Source: a virus
Length of the DNA stretch: 30,614 nucleotides
Virus record (IMG/VR): IMGVR_UViG_3300040751_001734
Span: 1-30,614 of that record
Reading direction: 5' to 3' (one strand)
Shown: one piece after another, positions 3,701-30,614 of the stretch
How the letters are laid out: every line of letters begins with the position of its first letter
Position numbering within the stretch: the first letter of the stretch is position 1
Notes under the pieces: generated by a model
The model's database searches: none
The model's input: the letters and a program-made list of their open reading frames with translations, nothing else
Told to the model about the DNA's origin: nothing
Translations under genes and position numbers: made by a program

Positions 3701-4250
3701 CATTAATTCCATTAACTGAGTCTACTTTAATAGGACGACCGATAACACTATTTGCAGGTAATGCTGCATTTAAAACTTTTACAAACTGTTCATACCAATA
3801 CTGGTTAGAAACATCATTCCAAACAATAGTTTGACCACCTAGATTTACTCCATTAGAGTCTAAAATATTTTCCGATGTAGTAACACTTGCAAATTTTAAT
3901 AGTCCGTTTGCTGATTGATTACGCTTAGGATTATAAGAAAGTAAACGTGCTAAACGTAGTATACTTTCTCTACGCTCTGCAAGTTCTAGATAGTTTTCTC
4001 TTGCATTTAAATCAATACGGAAAGCAATGTTTTGTCCAAGGTAAGCAATAAGATCAATCAGTGCTAGATATTCTGAACTTTCAATGTAATCATTAAAGTC
4101 TTCTGGATAATTTTGACGTAGATAGTTAATCATTGTTCGACGTAAATTGTCGAAGTCATAACTTTGAAAATCTGCGTTGCGGAATGACTGGTAGACACGC
4201 TTCCAGTCTTCGGCTAGTAATAATCTATTTTGACGATCTGTAGTTGACAT
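750..4250 (-). CDS. gp6: Baseplate wedge protein gp6-like, enlarged
   Basis: gp6 forms the ring that joins baseplate wedges around the hub. The first 120 residues fit T4 gp6 closely in style: MINYLRQNYPEDFNDY, then SSEYLALIDLIAYLGQN, then RRESILRLARLLSYNP. The protein has 1166 residues against about 660 in T4, so roughly 500 residues are extra, apparently spread through the middle and C-terminal half (for example the Asp-rich FFDSDDDGVIDNPD near residues 815-828). A wedge-like segment near residues 1000-1115 (YHPVKYKILFGT to WEFGETFYFQEL) matches the conserved C-terminal part of the family. A late-promoter-like CATAAATA lies 25 bases upstream. The stop overlaps the next start by one base. Confidence 0.9.
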   Translation of the reverse strand: MSTTDRQNRLLLAEDWKRVYQSFRNADFQSYDFDNLRRTMINYLRQNYPEDFNDYIESSEYLALIDLIAYLGQNIAFRIDLNARENYLELAERRESILRLARLLSYNPKRNQSANGLLKFASVTTSENILDSNGVNLGGQTIVWNDVSNQYWYEQFVKVLNAALPANSVIGRPIKVDSVNGINVEQYRFNATNTDIPNYGFSKNINGKSSQFEIVSTDVSNGEIIEEPPLPGNNLSFLYRDDGQGASSSNTGYFLHFRQGRLDTGNFSVQTPSTNQTVAIDATNVNNTDVWLYRLDNAGIENELWTKVDAVEGNNIVYNSLNKNIRSIYSVLTRVEDRISLIFSDGVFGELPKGSFRVYYRISDNRNMIINPDDMIGISISVPYISKSGTTEKLTIGLNLKYTISNAATSESNESIKTNAPATYYTQNRMVTGEDYNVAPLNVSQEIIKVKSVNRTSSGISRYFDLLDATGKYSKTNLFGIDGILYTQFLKTKAQFNFTTRTDIEGIIKNTIEPIISDIKIKNYYYSQFPRIIVSDLNASWVQTTRSLNQSTGYLQESGRSLRLGTFTGNNFKYVSPGSLIKFIAPEGYHFMLDDMSKLMEGPADHPNASTYKWTKVVSVSGPGTDITNGRGPVVFNDVIPEGALVEQLIPRLATTLENDVKTRMIDQFFAYKSFGLRFDVNTGLWRVIVDSDLNINGEFSTGKTGDTTSTRQDSSWLLLFETDGEKYTLTYRNQRYVFESDKEIRFYYDSSDKVYNPQTGEIVKDKITILPINRRPGTTTKLGLLPLNIGYSLELQEEYRDREGYVDSKKIQVGFFDSDDDGVIDNPDIFEDIVSSNIKHQWIFQEQYTTADGVEDFRYVDQASKQIQVFANEAEVTTIGLINFLDQTIFYFHETDVFKIYNEADEALSLLTTYRAYKGRDQLQFQYEHAADESNRIDPSSSNIIDTYLLSKTYDTSYRRWLEGSLNEKPLPPSTDSLFNNFGQEINKIKSISDEVIYHPVKYKILFGTKAASDLQATFKIVKNPDLVVNDNEIKARVISAINSYFALENWEFGETFYFQELATFIMNSVAPDLASIVIVPNQSTQAFGSLFEVKSEADEIFVSGATVDNIEVIDAITASRLRSSGDLVTTVDNDTTGVVSSSTTTVEQTNFANYSIGTNGGSSY

Positions 4251-4274
4251 CTATCGCTTCCTTACTTTATACAA

Positions 4275-4282
4275 TATTTATG
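4275..4282 (-). promoter_or_regulatory. Possible late promoter (CATAAATA) before gp6
   Basis: Read on the minus strand, the 53-base gap before gp6 contains CATAAATA, one mismatch from the T4 late -10 consensus TATAAATA. Transcription would start about 18 bases before the gp6 ATG. It is a variant in an AT-rich spacer, so chance is a real alternative. Confidence 0.35.
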
Positions 4283-4302
4283 TTATTTAGAAAAGTGCGT
4301 AT

Positions 4303-4749
4303 TTAATTGATGAGTCCATTATTCTCATCAAATTTTAATACCATAGATTCAGAAATACTGTAGGGAAGATAGGTTAAATCGCATTCAATTTGTATGCCAG
4401 ATTCGTATGCTGATACGGCTATATTTTCAGCATTTACTCTTGGATCATAGTTGATTATTTCAGTAACGTTTTTTGCAATAGCGTTTTTTACTTGCGGCGT
4501 AAGAGGTTCAAATAGTACGTCCCAAATTATTGTTCCAAAATTAGGATTTTCTAATTTTTCGCCTTTACGTATATGAAAATGATTTATTAAGTCTTGTTTA
4601 ATTAATGCAATATCGTAAACAGTGTAACTGGTATTTTCAGGATTAACTGTAGTCAGCCCTCTGTAAGCACGGCTTTTAACCTGAGGTTTAGGACTTTCTG
4701 ATGACTCAACCCTAATATTTTTATACAAATCTTTTTCTATAGTACTCAT
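4303..4749 (-). CDS. gp25: Baseplate wedge protein gp25
   Basis: A 148-residue member of the gp25/GpW lysozyme-like family (T4 gp25 has about 132 residues). gp25 is a small wedge protein at the gp6-gp53 junction and helps trigger sheath polymerisation. The core is visible as DLINHFHIRKGEKLENPNFG at residues 53-72, followed by the family EP dipeptide in VLFEPLTPQ (residues 78-86). The first 35 residues are a basic/polar extension. It lies between the peptidase gene (17 bases upstream) and gp6 (52 bases downstream), matching the wedge assignment. A GATAAATA sequence sits only 7 bases before the ATG, too close for an ordinary leader. Confidence 0.93.
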   Translation of the reverse strand: MSTIEKDLYKNIRVESSESPKPQVKSRAYRGLTTVNPENTSYTVYDIALIKQDLINHFHIRKGEKLENPNFGTIIWDVLFEPLTPQVKNAIAKNVTEIINYDPRVNAENIAVSAYESGIQIECDLTYLPYSISESMVLKFDENNGLIN

Positions 4750-4766
4750 AGCAATATTTATCCGCT

Positions 4767-5531
4767 TTAAACTGTGCTATCATTACCAGCTTGTGCTGCT
4801 GCTGTACCGTCAATTGATACATCTGCTTCAGGAGGTAATGCCCAGTTACGTTTAACATGTTTTACATATTGTTTATCGCTGTTAAAACTATAGTTAGAAA
4901 TTTTAGCATCGTTGCCTTGATTTCCACCAAGTACTTTAATAGTACCGTTTGATGTTATTTCTTTAATAAATCCAATATGTCCGCCACTACGTGTTTTTGA
5001 TTTAAACACGACAATATCCCATTTACGGATCTGTGAAGTATCACGCCAGTTTACTTCTCCGCCATAATTTCCCCAACCTTGACTACTCATAGTTCTATTG
5101 CTAGGAAGACCGGCTGTAACTAATACCCAACTAACAAATGCTGAACACCATGCATATGCCATTTCGCTACTATCTCGAGTATAGCTTAAATTACAGGCTC
5201 TGTAACATTCAAGTATTCTTGGATTGCCTGGGTTTCCTCTTTCAGCCCAATCTTGAGTCAGTACATTATTAAGAATTGCATCTAGTCTTTCCCAACCAGG
5301 ATTTTCTGGAATAGGACCAGGTTCAACATCACCAGGAGCATAACCTCCGCCGCCGCCTGGACTATACGAGCCGCCGCCGTTATTTCCATTACCTCCGAAG
5401 TTTCTTGGATAGTCACCTTCTAGATCTAAATAATTAAATCTTCCACTTTCTAAAATATCGTTAGAATTTTCGTAATCTCTAGGTTCTAACGGATTAACTA
5501 CTACTGATGTTGGTACTAATACTTGACACAT
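4767..5531 (-). CDS. Tail-associated amidase/peptidase (NlpC/P60-CHAP type)
   Basis: 254 residues. An N-terminal arm (1-45) is followed by a Gly-rich linker (45-64) and a papain-like cell-wall hydrolase domain (about 80-235). The expected catalytic cysteine is C129 in AYAWCSAFVSWV, the histidine H185 in GGHIGF, and a polar third residue may be N204 in LGGNQGN. This pattern fits the TIGR02594-type peptidase family, which cuts peptide bonds in peptidoglycan. No signal peptide is seen, and the gene sits inside the baseplate operon, overlapping the gp5 stop by one base. I therefore infer a virion-borne enzyme for local wall digestion during DNA entry rather than a free endolysin. A lysis role is not excluded. 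Confidence 0.78.
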   Translation of the reverse strand: MCQVLVPTSVVVNPLEPRDYENSNDILESGRFNYLDLEGDYPRNFGGNGNNGGGSYSPGGGGGYAPGDVEPGPIPENPGWERLDAILNNVLTQDWAERGNPGNPRILECYRACNLSYTRDSSEMAYAWCSAFVSWVLVTAGLPSNRTMSSQGWGNYGGEVNWRDTSQIRKWDIVVFKSKTRSGGHIGFIKEITSNGTIKVLGGNQGNDAKISNYSFNSDKQYVKHVKRNWALPPEADVSIDGTAAAQAGNDSTV

Positions 5532-12378: not shown

Positions 12379-13209
12379 ATGAGAAAAGTAAATTACCTTA
12401 ACAATAAAGACATTTTAGCCGAAATACATAAGTCAAAGTCACGGTTTTGTAGCTTCATTGATCAGGACTATCACCAGTATGATATCATACTTACTGATGT
12501 TGAAAAAATCAACATCCGTACTATTGCAGAAGCAAAGCGTAACAAAGCAAAACGATTAGGTGATGCCGAGTATCAAAGAAGAAAGGCCAATGGTGAACGA
12601 GTAAAACAAGCAGAATGCGAAGTTGATTATAAAACTATCACTAAAGAAGAATTAATATTTCGCATTATGACGTTTGATCATGTTCCTGAAGAGCCTGGTC
12701 GTAAGAAAAATCCTAAAACTGTAGCAGATACAAAAGTGAAACTAAACTTTCCTCCATTCCAACATTATAAATTTGACGATGACGGCAATTTACAATGTGT
12801 AGGCAAAAGCCATTGGGTTGGCGGTATGGAAAACGGACACTTCAGTATGAAACATGCAAAGGCAACAGACAAACTTGCTATGATGTGGATGAAACTATGT
12901 GAACGCTATGCAACTAGAGGAAATGTACGAGGATATACCTACAATGACGAAATGCGAGGACAAGCAATACTACAACTTGCACAAATTGGCTTACAATTTG
13001 ACGAAAGCAAGTCAAATAATCCTTTTGCTTACTATACCGCTGCCGTTACTAATAGTTTTGTACGCATTATTAACATAGAGAAACGAAATCAAAATATACG
13101 TGACGACATATTAGAAATGAACCATATGAATCCTAGTTATACAAGACAGTCTCAAGGAGAATGGGAAGCAGCCGTAAAACGTGAAAAAGAAAATCAAAAT
13201 AATGGTTGA
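12379..13209 (+). CDS. gp55: Late-transcription sigma factor gp55-like
   Basis: gp55 is a minimal sigma factor that directs host RNA polymerase to TATAAATA late promoters. The N-terminus VNYLNNKDILAEI corresponds to T4's YVNNKELLQAI. The core near residues 214-240 (NPFAYYTAAVTNSFVRIINI, then EKRNQ) matches T4's NPHAYITQACFNAFVQRI region, the sigma-2-like DNA/core-binding part. The protein has 276 residues against 185 in T4: about 100 extra, mostly basic, residues lie between the two motifs (for example residues 50-130). The C-terminus ends in charged residues and lacks the hydrophobic clamp-binding tail of T4 gp55. It is followed by gp47/gp46 as in T4. Late motifs elsewhere in the window are its expected targets. 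Confidence 0.9.
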   Translation: MRKVNYLNNKDILAEIHKSKSRFCSFIDQDYHQYDIILTDVEKINIRTIAEAKRNKAKRLGDAEYQRRKANGERVKQAECEVDYKTITKEELIFRIMTFDHVPEEPGRKKNPKTVADTKVKLNFPPFQHYKFDDDGNLQCVGKSHWVGGMENGHFSMKHAKATDKLAMMWMKLCERYATRGNVRGYTYNDEMRGQAILQLAQIGLQFDESKSNNPFAYYTAAVTNSFVRIINIEKRNQNIRDDILEMNHMNPSYTRQSQGEWEAAVKREKENQNNG

Positions 13210-13234
13210 CAAAAGTGTACAAATATCGTATACT
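13206..13234 (+). promoter_or_regulatory. Sigma70-type promoter for gp47/gp46
   Basis: TTGACA (13206-13211), a 17-base spacer and TATACT (13229-13234). The -35 box includes the gp55 stop codon TGA (13207-13209). The predicted start near 13241 gives a leader of about 23 bases containing GAGGA (13251-13255), 8 bases before the TTG start of gp47. Confidence 0.85.
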
Positions 13235-13263
13235 TTAACACAGTATGATAGAGGAATTTTATC

Positions 13264-14274
13264 TTGTTTAAGAAAGCTGCCGTTTTTACGGATATACATT
13301 TTGGACTAAAAAGTAATTCAAAGATACACAATCAAGATTGTGAAGAATTTGTTGACTGGTTTATAGCACAAGCTAAGGAAAACGGTTGTGAAACCGGTAT
13401 TTTCTGTGGTGACTGGCATCACAACAGGAATAGTCTTAACCTTACAACCATGGACGCTACTATTCGTAGTTTAGAAAAACTAGGAAATAGTTTCGAACAG
13501 TTCTTTTACTTTCCTGGAAACCACGATTTGTACTACAAAGACAAGCGTGACATCCATTCTGTTGAGTTTGGCAAGTATGTGCCAGGCATAACAGTTGTAA
13601 ACGAAATTTTAGAAAAAGAAGATGTTGCACTTATACCTTGGTTAGTAGGTGACGAATGGAAACAAATAGAAAAAATTAAAGCCAAATATATGTTTGGACA
13701 CTTTGAATTGCCAAGTTTTTATATGAATGCTATGGTTAAGATGCCTGATCATGGAGATTTGCGACCACAACACTTTGTAAATCAAGATTATGTGTTTTCA
13801 GGACACTTCCATAAACGTCAAGTACAAGGTAAAATTCATTACATTGGTAATGCATTTCCGCACAATTATGCAGATGCATGGGACGATGAACGTGGCATGA
13901 TGATACTTGACAAAGAAAATAGTGAAGAACCAAGGTACATCAATTGGCCAGACTGTCCGAAATATAGAACTGTAAAATTGTCTCAGTTATTAGATCCTAA
14001 TTCGGATATCATTAAAAGTAAGATGTATTTGCGTGTTACTATTGACGTTCCGATTAGCTATGAGGAAGCACAGTTTATTAAGGAAACGTATATTAATCAA
14101 TACGATTGTAGAGAAATTACACTTATTCCTCAAAAACAAGTAGAAGAAATTACAACAGACGTTGACATTACACAATTTGAAAGTGTTGATCAAATTGTAA
14201 CGAATGAGATTGTAGCTATCGAAAGTGAGAGCTACAAAACAAAAACACTACTAGACATATACAATAATTTGTAG
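13264..14274 (+). CDS. gp47: Recombination nuclease subunit gp47 (SbcD/Mre11-like)
   Basis: 336 residues, the usual length (T4 gp47: 339). It is the metallophosphoesterase half of the gp46/gp47 complex, which resects DNA ends for recombination-dependent replication. Metal-binding motifs appear in order: D10 and H12 in FTDIHFG, D50 in CGDWHH, GNHD at 85-88, H146 in FGHFE, and GHFH at 180-183. The start is TTG: the nearest upstream ATG (13245) is out of frame, and GAGGA lies 8 bases before the TTG, so the protein begins MFKKAAVFTD. gp46 follows after 7 bases. Confidence 0.95.
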   Translation: MFKKAAVFTDIHFGLKSNSKIHNQDCEEFVDWFIAQAKENGCETGIFCGDWHHNRNSLNLTTMDATIRSLEKLGNSFEQFFYFPGNHDLYYKDKRDIHSVEFGKYVPGITVVNEILEKEDVALIPWLVGDEWKQIEKIKAKYMFGHFELPSFYMNAMVKMPDHGDLRPQHFVNQDYVFSGHFHKRQVQGKIHYIGNAFPHNYADAWDDERGMMILDKENSEEPRYINWPDCPKYRTVKLSQLLDPNSDIIKSKMYLRVTIDVPISYEEAQFIKETYINQYDCREITLIPQKQVEEITTDVDITQFESVDQIVTNEIVAIESESYKTKTLLDIYNNL

Positions 14275-20987: not shown

Positions 20988-20995
20988 TATAAATA
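20988..20995 (+). promoter_or_regulatory. T4-type late promoter for the tape-measure gene
   Basis: A perfect TATAAATA followed by C. Transcription would start near 21002, about 52 bases before the ATG at 21054. No strong Shine-Dalgarno precedes that ATG. Confidence 0.8.
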
Positions 20996-21019
20996 CATTA
21001 TAAAAGTATGTATCGTTTG

Positions 21020-21027
21020 TATTTATA
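21020..21027 (-). promoter_or_regulatory. T4-type late promoter for the gp26-like gene
   Basis: On the minus strand this is a perfect TATAAATA followed by C. Transcription would start near 21013, 37 bases before the gp26-like ATG. The element overlaps a 14-base palindrome TATATACGTATATA (21024-21037). Confidence 0.8.
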
Positions 21028-24623: not shown

Positions 24624-26369
24624 ATGAGTTGGAAAAAACACTTTACACCCGTTGATCAAATGTATGGACAATCTAGTCCATTTACAAAAGCTAGTGGTTC
24701 ACAACCGGGTCCTGCACGATCAAACTATTCATCGTATCTACCAGATGTATATGTAGGTTCACCTAATCGTATTGAACGTTACGGTCAATACAACACAATG
24801 GATTTAGATTCAGAAGTTAATGCTGCATTAGATATTTTAGCAGAATTTTGTTCTCAAAAGAATGGTCAAAATAAAACTCCATTTATTATGGATTTTAAAG
24901 AAACCGCTACAAATTCAGAAACAACTATCTTAGCAAAATATTTGCAACAATGGTGTAAACTACAAAATTTTGAAACACGTATGTTCCGTATTTTACGTAA
25001 TACATTTAAATACGGAGATTCATTTTTTATTAGAGATCCGGAAACTAAAAAATTGTTTCATGTTGATCCTGCAAAAATTACACGTATTATTGTTAATGAA
25101 AGTGAAGGTAAAGAGCCTGAACAATATGTTGTAAAAGATTTTAATTTAAATTTTAAAGAAATGGTAGCAACAACACCATTTCAAACTAATGGTAACGTTA
25201 CCGGGGGAGGGGACGGATACTTACAAGGCGGCGTTCGAGGAATGGTTGGCAATGTTAATACAAGTGCCGGAGGCGGACGTTTCCAACAAGAAGATAATGA
25301 AATTGCTGTAGATGCAGAACATGTAGTTCATTTAAGTTTAAGTGAAGGTTTAGATAATAACTTTCCGTTTGGTAATTCATTATTAGAAACAGTTTTTAAG
25401 GTATTCAAGCAAAAAGAATTGCTTGAGGATGCGATTATTATCTATCGTGTCCAACGTGCGCCGGAGCGCAGAGTATTTTACGTTGATGTGGGCAACATGC
25501 CGTCGCACTTAGCGATGCAATTTGTTGAAAGAGTAAAAACGGAAATCCATCAAAGAAGGATCCCATCGGCAACAGGGGGCGGTCAGAATGTCATAGACAG
25601 CTCATATAATCCTCTGTCAATCAACGAAGACTACTTTTTCCCACAGACCGCGGAAGGTAGAGGCTCAAAAGTTGAAACATTACCAGGAGGTACAAACCTT
25701 GGCGAAATTGATGATCTAAGATATTTTACTAATAAACTAGTACGTGGCTTACGAATTCCTTCAAGTTATCTTCCAACCGGACAAGATGACGGTGCTACAT
25801 CATTTCAAGATGGGCGTGTAGGCACAGCATACATCCAAGAATTGCGTTTTAACACATATTGCGAGCGTCTACAAAATCTTGTTATCGAAGAGTTAAATCA
25901 AGAATTTAAACGTTACATTTTAGAAAAAGGTGTTAACGTAGACATATCAATGTTTGATTTAAGATTTCAACCACCACAAAACTTTGCTGCATATAGACAA
26001 AGCGAAATTGATAATGCCCGTGTACCAACATATACACAGATGGCTCAAATACCATATATGTCAAATAGATTTGCACTTAAACGCTTCTTAGGCATGACAG
26101 ACGAAGAGCTTGCAGAAAACGAACGTTTATGGCGTGAAGAAAATGACGAAAACTTAGAACCACAACCAACTGATGCCAGTGCAGAAATGAGAGGTGCAGG
26201 TGTTAGTGGTGCAGGTATTGCATCAGATCTTTCAGGAACTGAAGACGAAGCCGGAGGCGAAATGGCTCCAGATATGGGAGGAGAAGCAACACCTCCAGAC
26301 ACAGCAACAGACCAAACTATAGGCGGCGGCGCAGGTGGCGGCGGCGCGGCAACAGACCAAACGATATAA
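24624..26369 (+). CDS. gp20: Portal vertex protein gp20
   Basis: 581 residues (T4: 524). gp20 forms the dodecameric portal through which DNA is packaged and which nucleates prohead assembly. Recognisable stretches are NTMDLDSEVNAALDILAEFC (about 53-72), KYGDSFFIRDPETKK (130-145), IIIYRVQRAPERRVFYVDVG (272-291) and LRIPSSYLPTGQDDGATSF (about 375-395). The C-terminus carries a Gly/Ala/Thr-rich tail with the phrase ATDQTI twice. Three bases separate it from the tape-measure stop. A tract around 25430-25680 is much richer in GC than the rest of the gene. A late promoter overlaps its stop codon. Confidence 0.95.
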   Translation: MSWKKHFTPVDQMYGQSSPFTKASGSQPGPARSNYSSYLPDVYVGSPNRIERYGQYNTMDLDSEVNAALDILAEFCSQKNGQNKTPFIMDFKETATNSETTILAKYLQQWCKLQNFETRMFRILRNTFKYGDSFFIRDPETKKLFHVDPAKITRIIVNESEGKEPEQYVVKDFNLNFKEMVATTPFQTNGNVTGGGDGYLQGGVRGMVGNVNTSAGGGRFQQEDNEIAVDAEHVVHLSLSEGLDNNFPFGNSLLETVFKVFKQKELLEDAIIIYRVQRAPERRVFYVDVGNMPSHLAMQFVERVKTEIHQRRIPSATGGGQNVIDSSYNPLSINEDYFFPQTAEGRGSKVETLPGGTNLGEIDDLRYFTNKLVRGLRIPSSYLPTGQDDGATSFQDGRVGTAYIQELRFNTYCERLQNLVIEELNQEFKRYILEKGVNVDISMFDLRFQPPQNFAAYRQSEIDNARVPTYTQMAQIPYMSNRFALKRFLGMTDEELAENERLWREENDENLEPQPTDASAEMRGAGVSGAGIASDLSGTEDEAGGEMAPDMGGEATPPDTATDQTIGGGAGGGGAATDQTI

Positions 26370-26377: not shown

Positions 26378-26623
26378 ATGATACTACGTGAACTATTTTA
26401 TTACGACAAAGAAACATTAGATCCTATAGAAGACACTATGTATGACGAGGAGTCTGACACATCTCCTGTTGAATATGACGATACACGTAAAACAAGACTA
26501 ACCCTTAGTCAAATTAACAAAGTAAGAAAAGCTGCTGAACTACATACTAAAGAAGAAGCAAAAGATTTGCATTTTGTACGTCAAATGTACGGAATTGCTG
26601 CTAATGCAGAAGCTGCGGTATGA
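26378..26623 (+). CDS. Small conserved protein after gp20 (possible prohead core component)
   Basis: 81 residues: MILRELFYYDKET, a polar acidic segment (EDTMYDEESDTSP), then DDTRKTRLTLSQINKVRKAAE and a helical end with KDLHFVRQMYGIAANAEAA. I have an impression of this protein following the portal gene in other marine T4-like phages but know no function. In T4 the same place holds gp67, a small prohead core protein; the correspondence is by position only. There is no convincing Shine-Dalgarno, and the start lies on the predicted late transcription start. It ends three bases before the next gene. Confidence 0.75.
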   Translation: MILRELFYYDKETLDPIEDTMYDEESDTSPVEYDDTRKTRLTLSQINKVRKAAELHTKEEAKDLHFVRQMYGIAANAEAAV

Positions 26624-26626
26624 TAA

Positions 26627-27217
26627 ATGAAAAGAGCGTTTGTTTGTGGTAACGGCACTAGCCGTAACTTTATTTCAATAGAAGAATTAAAAAAACACGG
26701 TAAAGTATATGCATGTAATGCTGTATACCGTGAATCTCGACCTGATTACTTAATCGCTGTAGATCCTAAAATGATAGTTGAAATAACTTATAATGGATTT
26801 CAACTAGAAAACGAAGTATGGACAAATCCTAATAAACGATTTGACGGACATAAGTTTGAAAAGTTAAATTATTTTAATCCTTCAAAAGGTTGGTCAAGTG
26901 GACCAACAGCACTATGGTTAGCAGGACAGCATGTGTATGACGAAATATACATGTTAGGTTTTGACTTCCAGGGATTAGATAACGGAAAAAGATTTAATAA
27001 TGTATTTGCAGATACGCCTAATTATAAAAAATCTAATCAACCAGCAACATTTTACGGAAATTGGTTAAGACAAACTGAAACAGTAATTAAAGAAAACTCA
27101 AATATTAACTTTATAAGAGTAATACAGCCAGATAATTTCATACCTCCTCAGCTAAATAATTTTAGAAACTTTAGTACTTTACAAGCTAAAGATTTTGAAG
27201 AAAGACTGAAAAATTAA
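26627..27217 (+). CDS. Rossmann-type glycosyltransferase-like protein (GT42/DUF115-like), uncertain
   Basis: 196 residues. It starts KRAFVCGNGTSRNF (a GNGxS loop), then VYACNAVYRESRPDYLIAVD (residues 31-50), later SSGPTALWLAGQ (91-102) and DEIYMLGFDFQG (106-117). The order GNGxS, NxxY plus a D near the end of a strand, SGxxA, and a LxGxDF strand is what I know from alpha-2,3-sialyltransferases of GT42 and from DUF115 (MAF/MptE-like) proteins. Its donor and acceptor cannot be told. It sits inside the head operon with no regulatory break, so it may modify a virion protein or host surface. The structural resemblance is my reading, not a search result. Confidence 0.6.
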   Translation: MKRAFVCGNGTSRNFISIEELKKHGKVYACNAVYRESRPDYLIAVDPKMIVEITYNGFQLENEVWTNPNKRFDGHKFEKLNYFNPSKGWSSGPTALWLAGQHVYDEIYMLGFDFQGLDNGKRFNNVFADTPNYKKSNQPATFYGNWLRQTETVIKENSNINFIRVIQPDNFIPPQLNNFRNFSTLQAKDFEERLKN

Positions 27218-27224
27218 CCACTCT

Positions 27225-27248
27225 GGCCAAAATCGTGCATTTTTGGCC
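27225..27248 (+). terminator. Possible terminator or RNA hairpin
   Basis: GGCCAAAA, an 8-base loop, then TTTTGGCC, a perfect 8-bp stem seven bases after the stop of the 26627 gene. It is followed by TATTTC rather than a solid T-run, so it may be partial, or may stabilise the upstream message. Confidence 0.5.
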
Positions 27249-27270
27249 TATTTCTATGCATATATTTCCC

Positions 27271-27278
27271 TATAAACT
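27271..27278 (+). promoter_or_regulatory. Weak late-promoter-like element before the acidic core gene
   Basis: TATAAACT matches TATAAATA at six of eight positions and would start transcription near 27285, leaving about 44 leader bases with AGGAGA before the ATG at 27329. It sits after the hairpin at 27225, where a fresh promoter would be useful. Confidence 0.3.
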
Positions 27279-27328
27279 AAATATTATTGACAGCCTTACC
27301 ATAGGTAAATCATTTATAGGAGAAAATA

Positions 27329-28306
27329 ATGGCAAATCGCAACAAGTTTGAAGAAATGCTTGAGCGTCTAGTCAATGAAGACAAGGCAGGCGCAGAAGAG
27401 CTATTCCACGAAATCGTGGTAGAAAAATCAAGAGATATTTACGAATCACTACTAGAAGACGACTTAGACATCGAAGAAGAAACCGATGAAGAAGTTGAAG
27501 AAGCTAGTGACGAAGAAGTTGAAGAAGCAACTGACGAAGAAGTAGAAGAGTCAGATGACGAAGAAGTAGATGAAAACTTCGATCTAGACGAATTTGAAGT
27601 CGAAGCTGACCCAATGGATATGGGCGGTGATCCAGCAGACGATATGATGGGTGACTTAGAAGGCGGCGACGAAGAAGGTGAAGAAGGCGAAGAAGACGAA
27701 GGTGAAGAAGGCGATATGGAAGATCGTGTTGAAGACCTAGAAGATGCGCTAGAAGACCTAAAAGCAGAATTTGAAAAAATGATGGCCGGCGATGACGACG
27801 GCGAAGAAGATTCCGGCGACATGGATGACATGGACGACGGTGAAGAAGAGGCTGAAGAAGAGTCTCTATACTTTGGCGAAGCTGAAGATGAAGAAGTAGA
27901 AGAATCAGATGACGAAGAAGTTGATGAAGCGTCAGATGAAGAAGTTGAAGAAGGCGAAAAGTCAGCAACAGAACAAATGCGTGAATACGTAGAGAAAGTT
28001 GCAGGCGGTCACGGTGCTGAAACAAAAGGCAAAGGTGAAACAGCTGACAACAAAAAATCACCAGTAGCAGGCAAAAATGATATGGGCGGCACAGCCTCTA
28101 ACATCGTTGCAGGCGGCGAAGGTTCAGAAGCTGGTCCAAAAGGCGGACTAGGTGATGACAACGCTAAGGAAGAAAATGCAGGTAATGTAAATGTTCCAGG
28201 TGGTAAAGCATCTAAGTCAATGAAAGCTATGCCAAAAGGCCACGGCGCTGAGAAAAAAGGCGCAGGCGAAACAGCAGCTAATAAAAAATCAACAATTGGC
28301 AGCTAA
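27329..28306 (+). CDS. Highly acidic prohead core protein candidate
   Basis: 325 residues. The first 45 form a helix (KFEEMLERLVNEDKAGAEEL, then FHEIVVEKSRDIYESLL) of the sort I associate with core proteins between portal and protease genes in marine T4-like phages. An extreme Asp/Glu region (about 45-215) has 8-residue repeats of the type EEVEEA(S/T)D. The last 110 residues are Gly/Lys/Ala-rich, with two related segments, HGAETKGKGETADNKKS and HGAEKKGAGETAANKKS. By position it corresponds to T4 gp67/gp68, acidic core proteins degraded by gp21. Strong Shine-Dalgarno AGGAGA. The acidic part is expected to mimic DNA charge inside the prohead (inference). Confidence 0.7.
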   Translation: MANRNKFEEMLERLVNEDKAGAEELFHEIVVEKSRDIYESLLEDDLDIEEETDEEVEEASDEEVEEATDEEVEESDDEEVDENFDLDEFEVEADPMDMGGDPADDMMGDLEGGDEEGEEGEEDEGEEGDMEDRVEDLEDALEDLKAEFEKMMAGDDDGEEDSGDMDDMDDGEEEAEEESLYFGEAEDEEVEESDDEEVDEASDEEVEEGEKSATEQMREYVEKVAGGHGAETKGKGETADNKKSPVAGKNDMGGTASNIVAGGEGSEAGPKGGLGDDNAKEENAGNVNVPGGKASKSMKAMPKGHGAEKKGAGETAANKKSTIGS

Positions 28307-28319
28307 TAAGGAAGTTTGA

Positions 28320-28949
28320 ATGAGAAACTTACGAGAGCATTTGACATTTGACCAAGCAAACATGGTCGTAGAGTCTTCGGAAAACTCAAAAGGCGGCAAA
28401 GACCTTTATATGAAAGGTATTTGCATACAAGGCGGAGTACGCAATGCTAACCAGCGTGTATATCCTGTGAATGAGATTGGAAGGGCTGTCAAAACTCTCA
28501 ACGATCAAATAAGCGGAGGTTATAGTGTTCTCGGCGAAGTTGATCATCCAGATGGACTCAACATTAACCTAGACCGTGTAAGTCATATGATTACAGAAAT
28601 GTGGATGGATGGCCCAAATGGTTACGGCAAAATGAAAATTCTACCAACCCCTATGGGACAGCTAGTACAAACAATGCTTGAAAGCGGAGTTAAACTAGGT
28701 GTTTCATCAAGGGGCTCTGGTAATGTAGTAGAAGGATCAGGCGAAGTATCTGATTTTGAAATAATCACCGTGGACGTCGTGGCACAGCCTAGCGCCCCTG
28801 GTGCATATCCAACCCCAGTATATGAGCATTTAATGAATGCAAGGGGCGGTTATAAGGCATACGAACTTGCACAGGCAACAAAACACGACGATAAGGCACA
28901 AAAGTATCTTAAGGAATCGCTGGTTAATATAATCAGCAAACTCCAATAA
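28320..28949 (+). CDS. gp21: Prohead protease gp21
   Basis: 209 residues (T4: 212). This serine protease of the herpesvirus-assemblin type digests the prohead core and trims capsid proteins. H76 in LGEVDHPDG and S129/S130 in GVSSRGSG are the expected catalytic region, and VDVVAQPSAPGA (151-162) follows as in the family. Shine-Dalgarno AAGGAAG precedes the ATG; the gene starts 13 bases after the acidic core gene and is followed by gp22, exactly as in T4. Confidence 0.95.
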   Translation: MRNLREHLTFDQANMVVESSENSKGGKDLYMKGICIQGGVRNANQRVYPVNEIGRAVKTLNDQISGGYSVLGEVDHPDGLNINLDRVSHMITEMWMDGPNGYGKMKILPTPMGQLVQTMLESGVKLGVSSRGSGNVVEGSGEVSDFEIITVDVVAQPSAPGAYPTPVYEHLMNARGGYKAYELAQATKHDDKAQKYLKESLVNIISKLQ

Positions 28950-28964
28950 TGAGGAGAAAATAAT

Positions 28965-30065
28965 ATGTTGGATGCACTAAAAACACTGTTTGAGAACGAT
29001 GTAGTTTCTGAACAAGTGCGTCAAGAAATTGAAGAGGCTTGGGAAGCAAAGGTTAAAGAAAACCGTGTTGCTGCTACAGCTGAACTTCGTGAAGAATTTG
29101 CTCAGAAATATGAGCATGACAAAGCCGTAATGGTCGAAGCAATCGATAAAATGTTGTCTGAAAAGCTACAAGAAGAAATTGCTGAATTCCAAGAAGATCG
29201 CAAACAACTTGCAGAGCAAAAAGCAAAATATGCTGTTGCAATGCGTGAAAATGCAGATCTACTAAAAGGTTTTGTAATGGAACAACTTTCAAAAGAAGTT
29301 TCAGAACTACATGAAGATCAAAAAGCTATGGCAGAAAACTTTTCTAAGTTAGAAGAATTTGTTGTAGAAGCACTTGCTAAAGAATTAGCAGAGTTCCATG
29401 AAGACAAAAAAGACTTAGCTGAAACAAAAGTACGATTAGTACGTGAAGCTAAAACCCACTTCGCTAAGGTTAAAACTAGCTTTATCGAAAGAAGTGCTAA
29501 GGCTGTATCTGAAACTGTTGACAAAGCTCTTAAAGCAGAGATTGGTCAACTTAAAGAAGATATCGAAGAAGCACGTAGAAACGACTTTGGTCGTAAACTG
29601 TTTGAAGCATTTGCATCTGAGTACGCAGGAAGCTATCTAAATGAGAAATCAGAGACAGCTAAACTGATGAAAGTACTAGACGCAAAAGACAAGCAACTAG
29701 CAGAAGCAAAGAATTTTGCTGTTAAAGCTAAAAACCTAGTCGAAAGCAAAGAACAAGAAATCATGCGTATTAGCGATCAAGCTAGCCGCGCAAAGATTAT
29801 GAACGAACTGACAGCACCTTTGTCGAAAGATCAAAAGGACATTATGTCAGACTTACTGGAATCGGTACAAACAAACAAACTTCAAAGTGCGTTTGATAAG
29901 TACCTACCGGCTGTTATCGACGGTAACACTCCAGCCAAGAAAAAGGCAATATTATCAGAGGCAAAATCAATTACAGGCAATAAAGAAGAAACTAACGTTA
30001 GTAGTAATGCAAGAAAGGTAGATAGCAATGTGCTAGATATCCGTAAACTTGCAGGATTAAATTAA
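28965..30065 (+). CDS. gp22: Prohead scaffold protein gp22
   Basis: 366 residues (T4: 269), almost entirely helical with coiled-coil character. gp22 is the main internal scaffold around which gp23 assembles, and is cut to small peptides by gp21. Three related segments are visible: EIAEFQEDRKQLAE (71-84), EVSELHEDQKAMAE (111-124) and ELAEFHEDKKDLAE (140-153). The extra length over T4 is probably in this duplicated part. The end is basic/polar (NVSSNARKVDSNVLDIRKL). GAGGAG lies 8 bases before the ATG. It is preceded by gp21 and followed by gp23, the T4 order. Confidence 0.92.
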   Translation: MLDALKTLFENDVVSEQVRQEIEEAWEAKVKENRVAATAELREEFAQKYEHDKAVMVEAIDKMLSEKLQEEIAEFQEDRKQLAEQKAKYAVAMRENADLLKGFVMEQLSKEVSELHEDQKAMAENFSKLEEFVVEALAKELAEFHEDKKDLAETKVRLVREAKTHFAKVKTSFIERSAKAVSETVDKALKAEIGQLKEDIEEARRNDFGRKLFEAFASEYAGSYLNEKSETAKLMKVLDAKDKQLAEAKNFAVKAKNLVESKEQEIMRISDQASRAKIMNELTAPLSKDQKDIMSDLLESVQTNKLQSAFDKYLPAVIDGNTPAKKKAILSEAKSITGNKEETNVSSNARKVDSNVLDIRKLAGLN

Positions 30066-30075
30066 GGAGATAATA

Positions 30076-30614
30076 ATGTCAGAACTACTAGAAGGTCGCT
30101 GGCAGGAGACTAAAGACGCCCTATTAGAAGGCCTTTCAGGCAACAAGAAGTCAGTAATGGCTTCAACACTTGAGAACACTCGCAAGTATTTGTCAGAAAG
30201 TGCAACAGCAGGGGCAACTTCCGCCGGTAACGTAGCAACTCTAAACAGAGTTATTTTACCCGTCATCAGACGTGTAATGCCAACAGTGATCGCTAATGAG
30301 ATCGTTGGTGTTCAGCCTATGACAGGTCCAGTGGGTCAAATCCACACACTACGTGTTCGCTATAGCGACACAGCTGATAACGTAGTAGCAGGTGATGAGG
30401 CAATGAGCCCATTCAAAATTGCTGCTGCATATTCAGGTAATGATGATGACAGCAACCCAGCAGCTAACAGCACAGCAGCTTTAGAAGGTGCAGCTGGTAA
30501 GCGTATGTCAATTCAGATCTTGAAGCAAACAGTAGAAGCAAAAACCAGAAAGCTATCAGCTCGCTGGACTTTTGAAGCTGCTCAAGATGCTCAAGCTCAA
30601 CATGGAATTGATGT
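30076..30614 (+). CDS. gp23: Major capsid protein gp23, N-terminal part (partial)
   Basis: The gene runs off the right edge; 179 complete codons are present. The ATG at 30076 has AAGGAGA 7 bases upstream, and the protein starts MSELLEGRWQETKDA. Diagnostic gp23 segments follow: LNRVILPVIRRVMPTVIANE (about 55-74), VGVQPMTGPVGQIHTLRVRY (76-95) and KTRKLSARWTFEAAQD (about 155-170). A gp21-type cleavage sequence L-x-E occurs as YLSE at residues 38-41, so the mature protein may begin at S42. T4 gp23 is cut after residue 65, so the propeptide here is shorter. Confidence 0.96.
   Translation, partial: MSELLEGRWQETKDALLEGLSGNKKSVMASTLENTRKYLSESATAGATSAGNVATLNRVILPVIRRVMPTVIANEIVGVQPMTGPVGQIHTLRVRYSDTADNVVAGDEAMSPFKIAAAYSGNDDDSNPAANSTAALEGAAGKRMSIQILKQTVEAKTRKLSARWTFEAAQDAQAQHGID

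Follow-up and report, generated by a model that had tools for sequence, protein, structure and literature searches.

Three described protein groups come closest to the phage gene product analyzed here: the flagellin glycosyltransferases Maf (DUF115; central domain pfam01973, structure 5mu5), the sialyltransferases CstII/CST-I (GT42, PF06002; 1ro7, 2p56) and the MptE-like/archaeal HPPK enzymes (PF01973; 8sd5). In CstII, the catalytic histidine is H188, and the donor is bound by a G-N-G-x-S loop, an Asn residue and an S-G pair. In the head region of T4, gp67 and gp68 are encoded between portal and protease; in Prochlorococcus phage P-SSM2, one small gene occupies this place. Maf enzymes, composed of three domains, transfer CMP-activated ulosonic acids to Ser/Thr residues of flagellin and, in the case of CbMaf, transfer Kdo (+220 Da) to flagellin Ser/Thr, as described in PMC11339370. 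On the phage side, mycobacteriophage glycans are described on capsid and tail tube subunits, with phage glycosyltransferases implicated (as cited in PMC12619734), and the same source describes four core glycosyltransferase groups in moraphages. The likeness of the mycobacteriophage case (other hosts and other phages) to the clade described below would be one of virion glycosylation.

The window, i.e., the whole analyzed stretch of 30,614 nucleotides of virus record IMGVR_UViG_3300040751_001734, contains a 196-aa ORF with an ATG start, which occupies exactly 26627-27217 on the plus strand and is here named GT1. By its predicted fold, GT1 is a single-domain protein of the Maf/CstII/MptE group. 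Its best structural match is Maf, from which it differs in lacking the N- and C-terminal domains and in being encoded in a phage head operon. The G-N-G-x-S loop, N31, S-G and G-x-D elements of GT1 align with those of CstII/CST-I, which it also resembles in fold, but GT1 is shorter and has no evident counterpart of the catalytic histidine; MptE/archaeal HPPK shares the fold group, but has a different chemistry. The head genes of the window are arranged as follows.

24624..26369, plus strand: portal protein of T4 gp20 type, 581 aa (Portal_T4, 1.7e-110)
26378..26623, plus strand: p81, a small 81-aa head-operon protein directly before GT1 (phrog_13986, 2.9e-12)
26627..27217, plus strand: GT1, 196 aa, predicted DUF115/GT42-fold protein (profiles, conservation, predicted fold)
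27218..27328, no strand: intergenic gap of 111 nt (from ORF coordinates)
27329..28306, plus strand: acidic, core-like protein, 325 aa (slot of the 121Q and K64-1 "structural protein" genes)
28320..28949, plus strand: prohead protease of gp21 type (Peptidase_S77, 6.2e-27; phrog_207, 2.4e-58)
28965..30065, plus strand: scaffold-like protein (phrog_10922, unknown function, 3.1e-82; place of the annotated 121Q scaffold)
30076..30612, plus strand: major capsid protein judged from its position, truncated where the window ends (121Q capsid-protein annotation at that place)

The original prediction placed GT1 between portal and prohead protease, and this position is correct, but GT1 does not stand there alone, being preceded by p81 and followed by the 325-aa acidic protein. 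The portal, p81 and GT1 genes form a close-packed unit, from which the acidic gene is set apart by the 111-nt gap, and p81 precedes GT1 wherever contigs extend that far. The motif TATAAATA at 26365, just 5' of p81, was considered as a late promoter and carries no weight, with four copies in the window vs. 3.25 expected.

Cultured phages share this arrangement without GT1. Among the 663 phage records matching the protease, 60 were taken at even steps; the first six were Sinorhizobium phage Phosso (60.6%), Pseudomonas phage 30-2, Erwinia phage pEa_SNUABM_50, Escherichia phage 121Q, Pectobacterium phage CBB and Klebsiella phage K64-1, and the head regions were read for all of these except CBB. 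All five show the same order as the window (portal, small protein, acidic protein(s), protease); in 121Q and SNUABM_50 the scaffold and capsid genes follow directly, as in the window, phi30-2 and K64-1 look similar with less annotation, and in Phosso, unlike in 121Q and SNUABM_50, many genes intervene before the capsid gene is reached. No GT1 homolog was found in the head region of Phosso, phi30-2, pEa_SNUABM_50, 121Q or K64-1, or elsewhere in these phages at E 0.01. Where the window has GT1, four of these relatives have a 96-107-nt gap from p81 to the acidic gene, and in Phosso the slot is taken by a short ORF of opposite orientation. Across the whole phage collection searched, GT1 matched only HTVC008M (two records) and Mosig EXVC030M at E 0.01; these homologs are not beside head genes, so that no record of the collection has GT1 in a head operon. 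We take the pelagiphage homologs to be members of phrog_30607, a family with no function assigned. In HTVC008M (L002), the genes between two GT1-family homologs (752-1309 and 4180-4983) are one for a carbamoyltransferase, one resembling phytanoyl-CoA dioxygenase and two that lack annotation.

Uncultured relatives, by contrast with the cultured ones, carry GT1 in every sampled locus that spans this slot. The GT1 query yielded 41 loci in IMG/VR, all in the head operon as far as contigs extend: 40 relatives at 52-68% identity over at least 160 residues, and one (L043) that is 100% identical over the last 52 residues. As selection by GT1 itself is circular with respect to operon position, the protease served as the query of an independent scan, from which the best 80 of 599 loci, i.e., those nearest the window rather than the more distant members of the clade, were kept. 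Among these 80, GT1 is present in 56/56 loci having p81 plus the acidic protein or protease; four more are cut inside GT1 and retain the remainder of it, and the remaining 20 lack GT1, their contigs starting either within the acidic gene or at most 60 nt before it. Together, the 56 spanning loci, 38 GT-selected loci and the window give 95/95. A further alignment-based scan, again GT-selected, added 69 new loci, of which 64/64 have p81 or portal upstream and, where the contig leaves room, 54/54 have the acidic gene or the protease gene downstream. The bacterial genome-contig scan with GT1 gave five loci, all on MAG contigs, one of which (L133) repeats the ORF lengths of the head operon.

The gene is under strong purifying selection, with a median dN/dS of 0.058 and a maximum of 0.124 over 67 close pairs, which are not independent of one another. 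Across the 56 loci, GT1 distances correlate with those of the protease (Spearman 0.58) and the scaffold (0.67), neither value being reached in 999 permutations; the corresponding protease-scaffold value is 0.80. From the fixed slot and from distances that track those of protease and scaffold, it follows that GT1 is inherited vertically within the head operon. Thus, GT1 is a core head-operon gene of a large, mostly uncultured clade of jumbo T4-like phages, and its relatives, purifying selection and 41 invariant residues (start Met included) show that the ORF is real and not a chance frame.

Sequence-family searches give weaker indications. The sole Pfam match of the window GT1 is CST-I (PF06002; E 0.0018, 18.3 bits, under the 25-bit gathering cut-off), a family also matched by 16/56 relatives when E values of up to 1 are admitted (best 2.3e-4). 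DUF115/MptE-like (PF01973, gathering cut-off 34.6 bits) gives no match to the window GT1 at E up to 10, and a weak match in 16/56 relatives (best 6.3e-4). The originally proposed resemblance to GT42 and DUF115 is borne out by weak matches, but all of them lie below the Pfam cut-offs, and no Pfam family is reached at its cut-off by the window GT1. NCBIfam gave no match for the window GT1. The phage family phrog_30607 (unknown function) matches it in two stretches at 8.4e-28 and all 56 members at E up to 0.01 (best 8.1e-41), while phrog_4603, annotated as alpha-2,3-sialyltransferase, is matched by 48/56 members (best 6.7e-7). A PDB sequence search returned five CstII chains at non-significant E values of 0.22-0.34, with the GNGxS, N31, S-G and GxDF stretches in register in two CstII alignments (phmmer). 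The PDB profile search yielded nothing significant, and its top rows, ETV6 chains, were judged chance-like. Comparison of the GT1 profile with 24 bacterial Maf domains by hhalign gave a weak link (probability 20%, E 0.0011). We do not file GT1 as a member of GT42 or Maf, because some of the defining features tested were not found in it; judged by its predicted fold, it would work like them.

The motifs named in the original prediction are all present (G8-N9-G10-T11-S12, W89-S90-S91-G92-P93-T94-A95 and L110-G111-F112-D113-F114), and the elements of main interest are located as follows.

26648..26662, plus strand: G-N-G-T-S loop, residues 8-12, in phmmer register with the CstII donor loop; G8, N9, G10 and S12 invariant in 56
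26717..26719, plus strand: N31, aligned with an Asn of CstII; invariant in 56
26891..26905, plus strand: W-S-S-G-P, residues 89-93, invariant in 56; S-G aligned with CstII
26957..26968, plus strand: G-F-D-F, residues 111-114; G111 and D113 invariant in 56
27056..27073, plus strand: G-N-W-L-R-Q, residues 144-149; R or K at 148 in 96/96

The alignment behind these counts comprises 56 sequences (58 representatives were picked, L061 and L127 were omitted for doubtful starts, and L031 replaces the cut L030). Besides the residues listed above, the invariant set includes D46, N124, N125, N132, Y133, G144, N145, W146 and Q149. There is no invariant His in the whole alignment of 56 members, H102 being His in 52/56. 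Residue 148, within G-N-W-L-R-Q, is an arginine in 67 of the 96 copies and a lysine in the other 29, and is taken by us to lie roughly at the place of the GT42 catalytic His. Among 53 sequences of the paralog GT2, introduced below, 26 have H and 21 have Y at the equivalent position. For the GT42 catalytic His itself, GT1 shows no evident counterpart, the CstII sequence alignment stopping before that site.

The AlphaFold2 model built on the 56-row alignment (pLDDT 94.6, pTM 0.91) has a Rossmann-type fold. Its top VIA-align match is the Maf flagellin glycosyltransferase 5mu5 (Z 12.3, 169/196 residues, rmsd 3.6), with CstII 1ro7 at Z 10.3 (176 residues, rmsd 4.0) and Campylobacter sialyltransferase chains at Z 9.3-10.3; the archaeal HPPK of M. 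jannaschii (8sd5; Z 9.6, 134 residues) ranks below Maf and CstII, and thiamin pyrophosphokinase scores Z 8.9. In PDB, Foldseek ranks the sialyltransferase 2p56 of Campylobacter first (E 1.8e-3, prob 1.00), none reaching E 0.001, whereas in BFVD 20 viral proteins reach this value, including some annotated as DUF115- and MptE-like. A Rossmann glycosyltransferase fold had been set beforehand as the test of the original prediction, and the model indeed falls nearest to two such enzymes; the donor-loop residues aligned with CstII are invariant in 56/56. The role then proposed, glycosylation of a capsid protein or of a nucleotide-linked substrate, is partly supported, by the fold, the donor-loop residues and the operon slot (56/56 for each of the latter two). 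Against this stand the missing evident counterpart of the GT42 catalytic His and a fold that would also suit an MptE-type pterin diphosphokinase (Z 9.6), and the pointers to virion glycosylation are confined to gene position, the shared N-terminal module described below and a partial linkage to KdsA/KdsB. Enzymatic activity of GT1 is likely.

The same absence of an evident catalytic His would be expected if GT1 were a catalytically inert or repurposed fold serving as a head-core or assembly protein. Consistent with such a role, GT1 is encoded among core proteins, in every spanning locus, and evolves with the head genes; however, its loops aligned with the CstII donor loops are conserved, dN/dS is about 0.06, and a paralog with the same motifs adjoins another sugar enzyme, so that we consider an inert protein distinctly unlikely.

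Many GT1 copies carry an additional N-terminal module. An extension of at least 24 residues before the fold is found in 40/96 copies and is missing from the window copy and 55 others; 38/40 extensions start with M-x-K-(I/L/V)-D-K, after which S/T-x-Y-T-K-E-E-W and a basic helix come in most cases. In the model of one such copy (L067), the helix spans residues 11-40, and pLDDT falls over successive blocks of ten (92, 78, 54), leaving the linker uncertain. A module profile was run against 27,815 stop-to-stop ORFs, of which a complete 335-kb contig contributed 2,637 and neighbourhoods of these genes most of the others, and module-bearing ORFs were sorted into classes by profiles of the folds alone. 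At E < 0.01, 134 ORFs matched: 101 GT1 (81 distinct) and 33 GT8-like (20 distinct), with no match on any other protein among the 27,815 ORFs and none on GT2. Both D-x-D and G-D-Q occur in 19/19 sequences of the GT8-like enzyme, and 10/19 weakly match Glyco_transf_8 (PF01501; best E 7.1e-4), the first member scoring 14.6 bits vs. a cut-off of 24.3. Five contigs contain both GT1 and the GT8-like enzyme; by eye, and in this small number, the module is absent on both enzymes in three and present on both in two. On the 335-kb contig, both start with one variant, MKKYIPGETK..., which the module profile missed, and on G036 the variants of GT1 and the GT8-like enzyme differ. The extension was also considered as a T4-type capsid-targeting peptide cut by gp21 and set aside, L/I-x-E sites occurring in a few copies (L003, L053) and no such site being conserved (by eye). 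On the 335-kb contig (L371), ARAGORN places a tRNA-Arg (ACG) at 13136-13212, inside the GT8-like ORF 13052-13918; it sits in the linker between module and catalytic domain, and the reading frame passes through it.

A divergent paralog, GT2, lies in a fibre cassette and is related to GT1 with an hhalign probability of 99.9% at 23-29% identity (IMG/VR). Around GT2, among the best 80 of 107 loci kept, we found p433 in 64, a fibre-like protein in 74, a QueD-like gene in 80, the GT8-like enzyme in 79, KdsA in 16 and KdsB in 2. The two alignments of cassette proteins comprise 27 and 19 sequences, each drawn from about 50 distinct proteins. In L201, the fibre-like protein gives matches to families of virion structural proteins and of short tail fibres. 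Contigs C57, G034, G035, G036 and G038 carry both GT1 and GT2.

Kdo genes accompany GT1 in part of the clade. A KdsB-like CTP transferase (PF02348) is present on C57 (335 kb), on the related C77 (153 kb), on G003 and, with KdsA, on G013 (147 kb), which was chosen through KdsB; all four contigs carry GT1, and the KdsA-KdsB pair lies 78-88 kb downstream of GT1 where both are seen. The KdsA proteins of the 335-kb contig and of two GT1-carrying IMG/VR contigs exceed the NCBIfam KDO-8-P synthase cut-off. For phage KdsB, the best NCBIfam matches are Kdo cytidylyltransferase models, below their cut-offs, and all 13 PDB matches at E 1e-5 are Kdo cytidylyltransferases; among the 53 IMG/VR loci found with phage KdsB, 50 have KdsA in the locus. 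By eye, the phage-type KdsA-KdsB pair of L142 (12043-13543), L144 (2454-3885) and L145-L197 has recurring helicase-like, cupin-like and zinc-finger-like neighbours.

Phage-made CMP-Kdo as a universal donor was rejected: KdsA and PF02348 are missing from G034 (364 kb) and G035 (270 kb), which reach about 96 and 102 kb past GT1 and thus past the place of the pair, so that a phage supply of CMP-Kdo is not the general rule. KdsA and KdsB were likewise not found on G036 and G038, but these contigs extend for less than 78 kb beyond GT1 and stop before the usual place of the pair; the same short reach makes absence say little for nine of the initial ten IMG/VR contigs. In the five cultured relatives, KdsA and KdsB gave no match at E 0.001.

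These genes bear on the possibility that GT1 is a surface-glycan enzyme, either made late or packaged in the head and injected, that adds a Kdo- or sialic-acid-like sugar to host LPS or capsule, e.g., against superinfection. The donor that KdsA and KdsB of the phages make is the one standard for LPS, and CstII-type enzymes act on lipooligosaccharide. Viral kdsA/kdsB or kdsB are classed with LPS or lipid A genes in two virome papers (PMC10653327, PMC9529941), the first of which records kdsA/kdsB among viral genes of surface sea water. On the other hand, GT1 is fixed inside the head operon in all 56 protease-selected spanning loci, the pair is missing in other GT1 carriers, and the module is common to GT1 and an enzyme beside a fibre-like gene; we therefore regard action on host surface glycans as unlikely.

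The QueD-like gene beside GT2 in 80/80 of the kept loci (L203-L282) and FolE, present on five large contigs, point in another direction, namely that GT1 is an MptE-like pterin diphosphokinase or a related pterin enzyme, with GT2 working alongside QueD-like and FolE. QueC is absent from these five contigs or, on C57, a weak partial match, which accords with a pterin role, as do the MptE-like Pfam matches in 16/56 relatives and the fold match to M. jannaschii HPPK. Nevertheless, Maf and CstII fit better and over more of the chain, there is no pterin gene beside the head copy, and the module is common to GT1 and a DxD glycosyltransferase, which together make a pterin enzyme quite improbable. PF00303, the thymidylate-synthase family, which includes nucleotide hydroxymethylases, is represented on one known phage contig, G036, of seven records searched. 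Modification of phage DNA bases by GT1, in the manner of the T4 glucosyltransferases, would have a precedent in DNA-acting phage glycosyltransferases (PMC12619734), but this single occurrence, the head-operon position, and nearest folds that are protein or glycan transferases render it highly improbable.

We favour, tentatively and at a little below an even chance, the interpretation that GT1 is a virion-protein glycosyltransferase with the DUF115/GT42 fold, based on the Maf-nearest predicted fold, the position among head genes, the module shared with a fibre-side transferase and, in part of the clade, the Kdo genes; counting against it are the lack of any Pfam match at cut-off, the weak profile link to Maf, the absence of an invariant His, the lack of KdsA and PF02348 on G034 and G035, the QueD-like and FolE genes, the absence of the module from 56 of the 96 copies, the window copy among them, and from every GT2, the differing module variants on G036 and the overlapping S/T counts of the portal tails. 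The sugar that GT1 would bind in nucleotide-activated form and place on a virion protein during head building is probably a CMP-activated ulosonic acid, for instance Kdo, which the host or, in some of the phages, the phage's own KdsA and KdsB would supply. The N-terminal helix and linker may dock GT1 of many relatives and the GT8-like enzyme to a common partner or site. The more specific proposal, that two unrelated glycosyltransferases with a common docking helix, supplied with CMP-Kdo in part of the clade, give head and fibre proteins a Kdo-type sugar, is possible, if on the unlikely side.

The first candidate acceptor is the portal tail, so ranked because tails in the clade are richer in S/T/P/A/G than those of relatives without GT1. 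The window portal ends in a P/A/T/G-rich C-terminal tail with 30 of the last 45 residues being S/T/P/A/G, and the clade ranges from 22 to 35 (77 distinct tails) vs. 15-18 in five GT1-less relatives; this richness is mostly in P, A and G, and the S/T counts overlap (3-14 of 45 in the clade vs. 2-8 in the relatives). The end of the window portal (24624-26369) is a repeat-like tail, ATDQTI-GGGAGGGG-AATDQTI, and DQTI or DQTV ends several relatives' portals too.

Both the fold and phage virion glycosylation are already known. What appears new, in that neither a glycosyltransferase in a T4-like head operon nor the shared module was found in the literature searched (open-licence PMC), is a single-domain gene of predicted Maf/CstII fold that is fixed in a head operon of T4 type, together with a docking-like module common to two unrelated phage glycosyltransferases. 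The same literature yielded no virion proteome for the GT1 clade. If the favoured interpretation is true, virion glycosylation would be a core step of head assembly in a widespread group of aquatic phages rather than an accessory trait, and the module and linked KdsA/KdsB would offer handles (donor, partner enzyme, docking peptide) on particle modification.

Two further observations concern other parts of the window. Two copies of TATAAATA lie on opposite strands at 20988-21027, in the gap that separates a baseplate gene from a divergently oriented tape-measure-like gene, the window count of this motif not being above chance. At 4767-5531, on the minus strand, a separate 254-aa protein corresponds to the C-terminal part of the baseplate hub/lysozyme family (phrog_1259, 3.8e-16) and adjoins a larger protein of hub/lysozyme type, which has a separate endolysin match.
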